Assembly (NCBI RefSeq): GCF_020085105.1
Contig: NC_058052.1
Span: 20,961,733-21,025,732, forward strand
DNA from: Siniperca chuatsi
Lineage: Eukaryota > Chordata > Actinopteri > Centrarchiformes > Sinipercidae
Length of the DNA stretch: 64,000 nt
Direction: 5' to 3'
Notes under the pieces: model-generated
Databases searched by the model: none
Told to the model about the DNA's origin: nothing
Seen by the model: the letters and a program-made list of their open reading frames with translations, nothing else
Part shown: positions 19,501-22,500 of the stretch, piece by piece
Layout: each line of letters begins with the position of its first letter
How positions within the stretch are numbered: position 1 is the stretch's first letter
Made by a program: the position numbers and the translations under genes

Positions 19501-22500
19501 TTTATCCTCAAAACAGCTGATAAGCTCATATCTGGACACCGCAGAAAATCAAACTTTCCCCTCCATCCCTTCATTGTTCCAGTTTTCTGTTGGTGTGCGT
19601 GTGTGTGTGTACAGTTGTGTGTGAATGTGAAGGTGCCAGTATGTTGTGTGCAGTGTCAGAAGAGACATTGAAATACCCGCTGATATGCTTCATGTTGTTA
19701 TTATATATCATACATAGTAACATTGAGGCTCAATATCAGAAATACATTCTTGACACTGGATGGTCATACCTCTACAAATATTTAACATAGTACAGTCTGC
19801 TCCAGTCACACACAGCCCTCTAAGGGTTTGTGTAAGAAACAGTTGATATTCCGCAGAAGAGCAGCACAGAAGAGTAAAGCTAATGTTTCTGTCTGTCGTC
19901 TGATCTTAATGACTAGGTCTCAATAATCACATTAAGTTCTCAAGTGTAACAACTAATGCTCCGTGTTTGTGTATGTTTTTGTTTGAAGTCACGCAGCGTG
20001 GATAAGCAGCATGCAGTCATCAACTACGAGGCTGGGACTGACGAACACAAGGTCAAGGACCTGGGAAGCCTGAATGGGGTGAGTACACAGATAGAAATAT
20101 CCAATACAGAGAGAGGTTAGGACAAAGATAAAAGGGCAAGAGAGAACGAAGACAGAAGGGACTGAAAAGAGTAGAGAAGATAAGGGTTACATGATGAATG
20201 AGGGATGGGGAGAAATACGAGAATGAGTATAACCAGCTGAAAGAGGAGTAAAGGGGTTTAGAGGGAGATGGATAGAGACTGCAAAAATAGGAAAAACCAA
20301 GGACATTCAAGGTAAAAAAATAGAGGGAGATGAGGTTCTTAGGGGTTAGAGGTTAATTTATTTTTTGGCAGTCAATAGGACCTTCTATTTTTCTGCTGCT
20401 AATCAGTCTCTCTGTCAATGAAGATCTGTATCAGGGCTGAGGTCATTTGGAATCTAAGGCTAATTATGCAAATCGCAACTTAAGGGCACAATCTGTGATC
20501 CAAACATAAACAAAGGGCCACTAAGACTCAAAACACAACCTTGGGACTGCTATTTTCTCATGACTTGGGAAAATGTTATTATCATTTCAGTAATGGAATT
20601 TCTGCTGATAATCGCAAGAAATAATGTGATAGTTGTAATAGGATTGTTGAACAATATGGTGTGCATGTTGGGATTTTTTTCTAGATGAAAATCAGTGTGT
20701 GGAGAAACACTGTATGGTCTCTGTTGGCTGTTAAAGGTATTTTGGGACATGTTGTAATTAACTGACTGAAGGTGAAGTAGATTAAGCAGGTTGAGTGATA
20801 GAGGATATACCAAAACCAACACTATACATTTCACCACTGTACATAACATAATTGATGATCCAAACATTTATCTGTAACTTTAAATGTAATTCTGTATTCT
20901 AACCTTTAGAAACACGAATGAACTCTGTATTTCTCCTATTTTAGATACACTTTACTTCTTTCTTTGACATTGTAACTGTGCTGTTAGTCATGTGTAGTGA
21001 GTAGCACTCAGTCACAGCCCACCAGGTTGGACACATATGCAGAATGTCCCTCACATCCTTTCCAGCTCTTAGACAGGAAGCCAGAGTCAGAGCCACTTCC
21101 TGCTGTTTCATAAACCATGTAGCTTCTTTGGCTGGATTCAGAGGAAGTTTCTCCCGCTGAGTCAGTGGAAATACAGAGATTTGCCACAGTGGTGTGGGTA
21201 AAAAGCTGTATTTGGGCAGTGTCACAATTTACTGTCTTACTGGAGTTGCTTCATTGCTGTTTTGGTAAGCTGTCATAAATTCATCTCACTAGAGAGGAGA
21301 CAGGAATGTTTTATTACAACAGCAGTGCAAGTACGATAGAATTTCATTTGCAGTACAGTGAAAGCCGATCTGTCTCAGAGTTGCATAGTAGAAGGAGGGG
21401 TGACAGTGGGGAATGGGAGTGGGAGAAAGAAAGAGATGGGAAAGAAAACAGTCAAAAGGAAACACATGCATTGTCATGCTTAGGCCTTTAGTCCTGGCTG
21501 TGCAGACTGATTTCTTATAAAGGATTCAACTGTTCGTCATGGCTTCATGCATACCAGGACCTGGCAGTGAGAGTTTCTCCTAATTGATACAGCTTCCATA
21601 ATCCTGAAAACCAAAAAAAAAAAATCTGTTATTTTTTTGTTATTTTTTAAGATACCAAACATTCTCATGTTCCAGCTTCTCAAATGTGAGGATTTGCTAC
21701 TTTTCTTCAGGATTTGCTCTTTTAAATTATTATTGCCATTTTATGACATCTTATAGACAAAACAATGATCAATTAACTGAGAAAATAATTGGCAGATGAA
21801 TCAATAATGAATAGAATCATTAGTTGCAACCCTAATTTCCACTTGGAAGCCCAGACACTGCTATGTGTAACACAACTGTGGACCAGCTTAATCAGATGCC
21901 TTTTTGTGGTGTTATCTTCCTTTACTTTACAATTTTTTCCCCAAGATTTTAAGTTTTCACATTCACACATAAACTATAGTGGTTACTTTATGTTAATGTT
22001 ATGTTTCATAGTTACATTTGGTTTAAATTTCCATCTTATTTTTTGTCTTGCCTTTGTCTTTCCTCTTCAGACCTTTGTAAATGATGTCCGCATCCAGGAG
22101 CAGATGTACATCACTCTGAAGTTGGAGGACAAACTGAGGTTTGGATATGATATCCTTTCACTTTTCTGACCTTTTAACCTCTTCAGTCCTCACACATCCA
22201 CCAGTGGGTTCATCGTTCCTAAAGCATGTTGAGCAGCCAAGCATTGTTCAAGCCCAGATATTATTATTATTAAAATTTTTACCAAGATGCCATATTATTT
22301 ACTGTGTACAATATGAAGATAGTAGAATTTACAGCTTGCAGTAGTAAATTGTTTCATGCATCTGTGTGTATAAAGTATATGTGTGTATGTACATGTGTCA
22401 TAATTGTGGCCAGTATTTCCTTAACCTGTCTGTCTCACATACCAACCTGTTCACGGTGGTGAGAGGAGAGCTCACTGTGCCTGAGGAGGCTCTAAAGGTA

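Follow-up and report, generated by a model that had tools for sequence, protein, structure and literature searches.

Within the window, the 64-kb stretch of DNA that was analysed here, the coding sequence of a cep170 gene is interrupted at positions 22150-22438 by a segment that starts with AT and ends with AC. This raises the question of whether the segment is an intron of the minor, U12-dependent class, as a first-pass annotation had proposed. The removal of a minor-type intron requires the U11/U12, U4atac/U6atac and U5 machinery. Splice signals, reading frame, paralogous genes and minor snRNA genes together argue that 22150-22438 is almost certainly a genuine U12-type AT-AC intron of a vertebrate, probably fish, cep170 gene, which would be removed by the minor spliceosome and would have been inherited from the gene that existed before the cep170/cep170b duplication. 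We infer from these observations that the intron is actually spliced, that its removal depends on U12 and that it is old.

The cep170 gene and the site of the intron

The window gene is identified as cep170 because of its Pfam matches to FHA and CEP170_C and its match to the FHA chain of human CEP170, 4JON_A. The first 129 translated residues align with 4JON_A without gaps over 124 residues (E 8.6e-72), and the Pfam FHA domain (PF00498) covers residues 24-90 of the translation with an E-value of 1.6e-15. The intron splits codon 92 (G/AT, Asp) in phase 1, and exon 22071-22149 continues into exon 22439-22497 without a shift of the reading frame. The joined exons read FGYDTNLFTVV, which is identical to human CEP170 in 4JON_A. 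The intron had been described as lying inside the FHA region of CEP170; this is correct with respect to the crystallised construct (4JON_A), but codon 92 is found just past the Pfam domain, and the intron is assigned here to the end of the FHA domain. Inspection of the later introns of the window gene by eye revealed that those which are recognisable start with GT.

When the window's own genome (719 Mb, 65 contigs) was searched at the protein level, with the best candidates alone being scored so that more distant copies could escape, the exon was found at two further places, C3 and C15. C3 carries a second cep170 gene, and the gene at C15 is one that we take to be cep170b-like. The Pfam family Yop-YscD_cpl also matches the FHA region of all three proteins, and a match below the cut-off is located at 44148-44573 of the window; both were left out of account. 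The features of the window gene are listed in Table 1.

Table 1. Coding exons of the window gene and elements of the AT-AC intron (window positions).
Feature	Position	Strand	Remarks
First coding exon, ATG at 16624	16624..16728	+	Similarity to C3, C15 and human 4JON_A; next intron GTAAGA...AAG
Second coding exon (SRSVDK...SLNG)	19989..20078	+	Next intron GTGAGT...CAG
Third coding exon (TFVND...FGY and first base of codon 92)	22071..22149	+	
U12-type AT-AC intron of cep170 (assignment almost certain)	22150..22438	+	289 bp, phase 1; site and termini repeated in the C3 and C15 paralogues
5' splice site ATATCCTTT	22150..22158	+	Identical in 3/3 cep170-type genes found
Branch site TTCCTTAAC, branch A at 22424	22417..22425	+	Pairing with U12 snRNA possible at all eight non-bulged bases
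AC 3' splice site	22437..22438	+	Intron end reads CAC
Fourth coding exon (rest of codon 92, TNLFTVV...EEALK)	22439..22497	+	Next intron GTAAGA...TAG
Fifth coding exon	22639..22870	+	3' end approximate
Open frame with a large CEP170_C exon	38195..39934	+	Exon edges within the frame provisional; Pfam PF15308, E 7.9e-103

Splice signals, boundaries and minor snRNA genes

The U12-type AT-AC introns of animals have been described as having a ATATCCTT donor, a TCCTTAAC branch site and an AC acceptor in a passage of the founding description (PMC2831892), and the same motifs are present in the cep170 intron. Its donor ATATCCTTT fits the extended U12-type 5' splice site RTATCCTT(T), the branch site matches TTCCTTRAY at 9/9 positions, and the AT-AC termini are within the two combinations, AT-AC and GT-AG, that are allowed for U12-type introns. 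Position +5 of the donor is a C and not the G that marks U2-type AT-AC introns. The statement that donor and branch site match the U12 consensus exactly thus holds for ATATCCTTT at 22150 and TTCCTTAAC at 22417-22425. The proposed spacing of about 14 bases between the branch point and the AC end was likewise confirmed, with 14 nt from the branch A (22424) to the last base of the CAC end (22438).

To locate the boundaries, donor positions 22072-22169 were combined with intron ends 22199-22478. Four equivalent pairs (shifts 0 to +3) yield the identical protein because ATA is common to the start of the intron and the next exon. 22150-22438 is the only pair that has AT-AC termini and places the U12 donor correctly; the other pairs read TA-CA, AT-AT and TC-TA, and no GT-AG boundaries are found among the protein-rebuilding pairs of the scanned range. 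The first-pass annotation had claimed that only these boundaries rebuild FGYDTNLFTVV. This has to be narrowed: the protein is indeed rebuilt and the AT-AC pair is the sole one of its kind, but four pairs give the same protein. Scans of the paralogues gave four equivalent pairs for C3 and three for C15, again with a single AT-AC pair in each gene and without GT-AG. GT-AG boundaries were therefore rejected for the cep170 intron, as none rebuilds the protein in any of the three genes within the ranges scanned.

Genes for the four minor snRNAs are present in the genome. One Rfam match above the cut-off was obtained for each of U6atac (131.2 bits), U12 (131.1 bits) and U11 (115.9 bits), and U4atac matches above the cut-off are located at two places (88.2 and 85.3 bits). 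The two U4atac loci, L023 (G000:C24:2602346-2602475) and L024 (G000:C12:2947212-2947338), are candidate genes. Within the 64-kb window, no RNA family was found by Rfam at the gathering score. Close to its 5' end, the U12 gene contains GTAAGGAA, which can pair with all eight non-bulged bases of the branch site, one A being left out. U6atac AAAGGAGAG and U11 AAAGGGCTT, which are also located near the 5' ends, form 6-base runs with the donor; this donor pairing is not specific, since a simple scan allowing G-U pairs also reveals longer runs, of up to 8 bases, at other positions of these RNAs.

Paralogues, age of the intron and competing readings

Conservation was compared among the paralogues of one genome. 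In the C3 and C15 genes, the intron splits the same codon in the same phase, starts with the ATATCCTTT donor and ends with AC. The C3 intron is 209 bp long and ends with ...TTTTACCTTAACCTGCCTCAC; its branch-like sequence TACCTTAAC matches at 8/9 positions and is placed at a distance of 10 nt. The C15 intron has a length of 703 bp, ends with ...GTACTTTAACTCCTCCTGCAC and contains the branch-like sequence TACTTTAAC, which matches at 7/9 positions at a distance of 12 nt. The imperfect branch motifs of C3 and C15 are counted against the U12-type reading. Compared with the optimum of 11-13 nt given in a section of PMC3584512, the distance in the window gene (14 nt) is just over and that in C3 just under the range. 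Of 12 introns examined towards the N-terminal ends of the three coding sequences, three are AT-AC, all of them at this shared site, and nine are GT-AG.

The intron bodies of the window gene and C3 are weakly alike (2/200 shuffles reach the score), and the C15 intron body has no detectable likeness to the other two (110/200 and 199/200 shuffles reach the score). Judging from these comparisons, the splice signals are kept and most of the remaining intron sequence has drifted. The identity of the intron as U12-type AT-AC, as initially put forward, is thus supported by donor, branch site, termini and snRNA genes, and both paralogues point the same way.

Some further similarities were observed at these loci. 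In the C15 exon that follows the AT-AC intron (L007), ATATCCTGG, a partial look-alike of a U12 donor, starts at the 13th exon base. The DNA identity of window positions 59407-59747 to a region downstream of the C3 cep170 gene is about 72% over 280 bp (E 2e-41) and 81% over 78 bp; because the similarity is found in several frames, this stretch resembles a conserved non-coding element or untranslated region more than an exon. Positions 60679-61130 are 82% identical over 475 bp to a place near the C15 cep170b-like gene. This stretch is located downstream of cep170 in the window and upstream of the gene at C15, and is therefore probably a dispersed repeat.

The encoded proteins give an indication of the age of the intron. 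Over 121 residues, human 4JON_A shares 110 identities with the window gene, 107 with C3 and 97 with C15. The window and C3 proteins share 109, and C15 shares 95 with the window and 92 with C3, which makes C15 the outlier. Most simply, the duplication that gave rise to C15 would predate the split between fish and human, and the AT-AC intron would then have been carried by the ancestral gene of CEP170 and CEP170B, before the cep170/cep170b split. By inheritance, the intron would also be expected in human CEP170 unless it was later changed. With its counterparts in both paralogues, it looks like an old intron that has been retained, and not like a chance resemblance.

How much weight can be placed on the motifs themselves? 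Across both strands of the 64-kb window, ATATCCTT occurs four times versus 2.49 expected occurrences, and TTCCTTRAC is found once in the window versus 1.38 expected. A donor, a branch site and a suitable AC within 2 kb appear in 18/300 dinucleotide shuffles of the window. Taken alone, the motifs within the window are weak to modest evidence for a U12-type intron and would not be conclusive. It could hence be argued that they are present by chance, and that the true boundaries lie elsewhere, for instance at GT dinucleotides within the exon 22071-22149, or that 22150-22438 is coding in some transcripts. We consider this extremely unlikely. The motifs point to more than chance because they are placed at conserved exon edges and recur in both paralogues, where the whole arrangement is repeated, and only the four equivalent pairs, none of them GT-AG, rebuild the protein in the scanned range. 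Reading through the intron adds six codons in the window gene before a stop at codon 98; in C3 and C15, stops are found at codons 95 and 125, respectively. The comparison with the paralogues is, in our view, the decisive evidence for a U12-type AT-AC intron.

The intron could also be an AT-AC intron that is removed by the major (U2) spliceosome, as known for sodium-channel introns such as SCN4A intron 21, with which it shares the terminal AT and AC. The termini alone do not set the class of an intron (passages in PMC2831892 and PMC3584512). Moreover, pyrimidines account for 16 of the last 20 bases ahead of the terminal AC in the window gene and in C3, and for 15 in C15, whereas U12-type introns are described in PMC3584512 as being without a distinct polypyrimidine tract; the stretch counted in these three introns partly covers the branch site, which is itself pyrimidine-rich. 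Removal by the major spliceosome is nevertheless very improbable: the sodium-channel introns carry a G at +5 according to the text of PMC2831892, whereas a C is present here, and the full ATATCCTTT is found in all three genes together with an exact U12 branch site in the window gene. A major-class AT-AC intron at 22150-22438, which is without G at +5, was thus rejected.

Separate gains of a U12-type intron in each cep170 gene might seem to be in line with the dissimilar C15 intron body. However, full divergence of neutral intron sequence is to be expected over so long a period, and the codon, the phase and the nine-base donor are identical in all three genes, which makes separate gains scarcely credible.

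Minor splicing and the CEP170 family

For the preferred reading, a U12-type AT-AC intron inherited by all three genes, the following sequence of events is proposed. ATATCCTTT would be recognised by U11 and then by U6atac, and U12 would pair with TTCCTTAAC, with the branch A bulged out. The minor spliceosome would then excise 22150-22438, thereby joining codon 92 at the end of the FHA domain. The intron would have come down from the precursor that gave rise to cep170 and cep170b by duplication. Were it retained, the predicted product would be a short protein that breaks off shortly beyond the FHA domain and lacks the long remainder.

The AT-AC share of U12-type introns is about 22% both in zebrafish (PMC7367187, Table 2) and in human (PMC6717393), and a section of PMC2831892 describes conversion to the major class as rarer for AT-AC than for GT-AG U12 introns. 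The cep170 intron would be one more U12 AT-AC intron and not a new intron type, and databases may already list it. CEP170 was not found to be named as a U12 target in the searched literature text, and no mention of KIAA0470, an old name of CEP170, together with U12 was found in this text either. Among the matches listed in broader literature searches, CEP170 and CEP170B were absent. In the available text of PMC11684760, CEP170 appears in the reference list only, and co-mentions of CEP170 and U12 elsewhere are unrelated (a data logger, a cited title and separate rows of an expression table).

The minor spliceosome has been tied to cilia, and IFT88, CEP41, RABL2B, ARL16 and CCDC28B are among the minor-intron genes reported to be affected by the loss of ZCRB1 (PMC13216214). 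Like these five, cep170 would be a centriole or cilium gene with a minor intron. Expression of cep170 may depend on U11/U12, and a link to skeletal or ciliary disease is conceivable. A more far-reaching proposal is that an AT-AC minor intron at the FHA end has been maintained throughout the vertebrate CEP170 family, in both CEP170 and CEP170B, since before the duplication, and that weakened minor splicing would truncate both proteins together just after the FHA domain and thereby contribute to the ciliary and growth defects seen in minor-spliceosome disease; as a whole, this is rather unlikely. With the intron described here, a centriolar gene family gains a minor intron of apparently ancient origin, and CEP170 and CEP170B become joint candidates for inspection in RNA data from animals or cells in which minor splicing is weakened.
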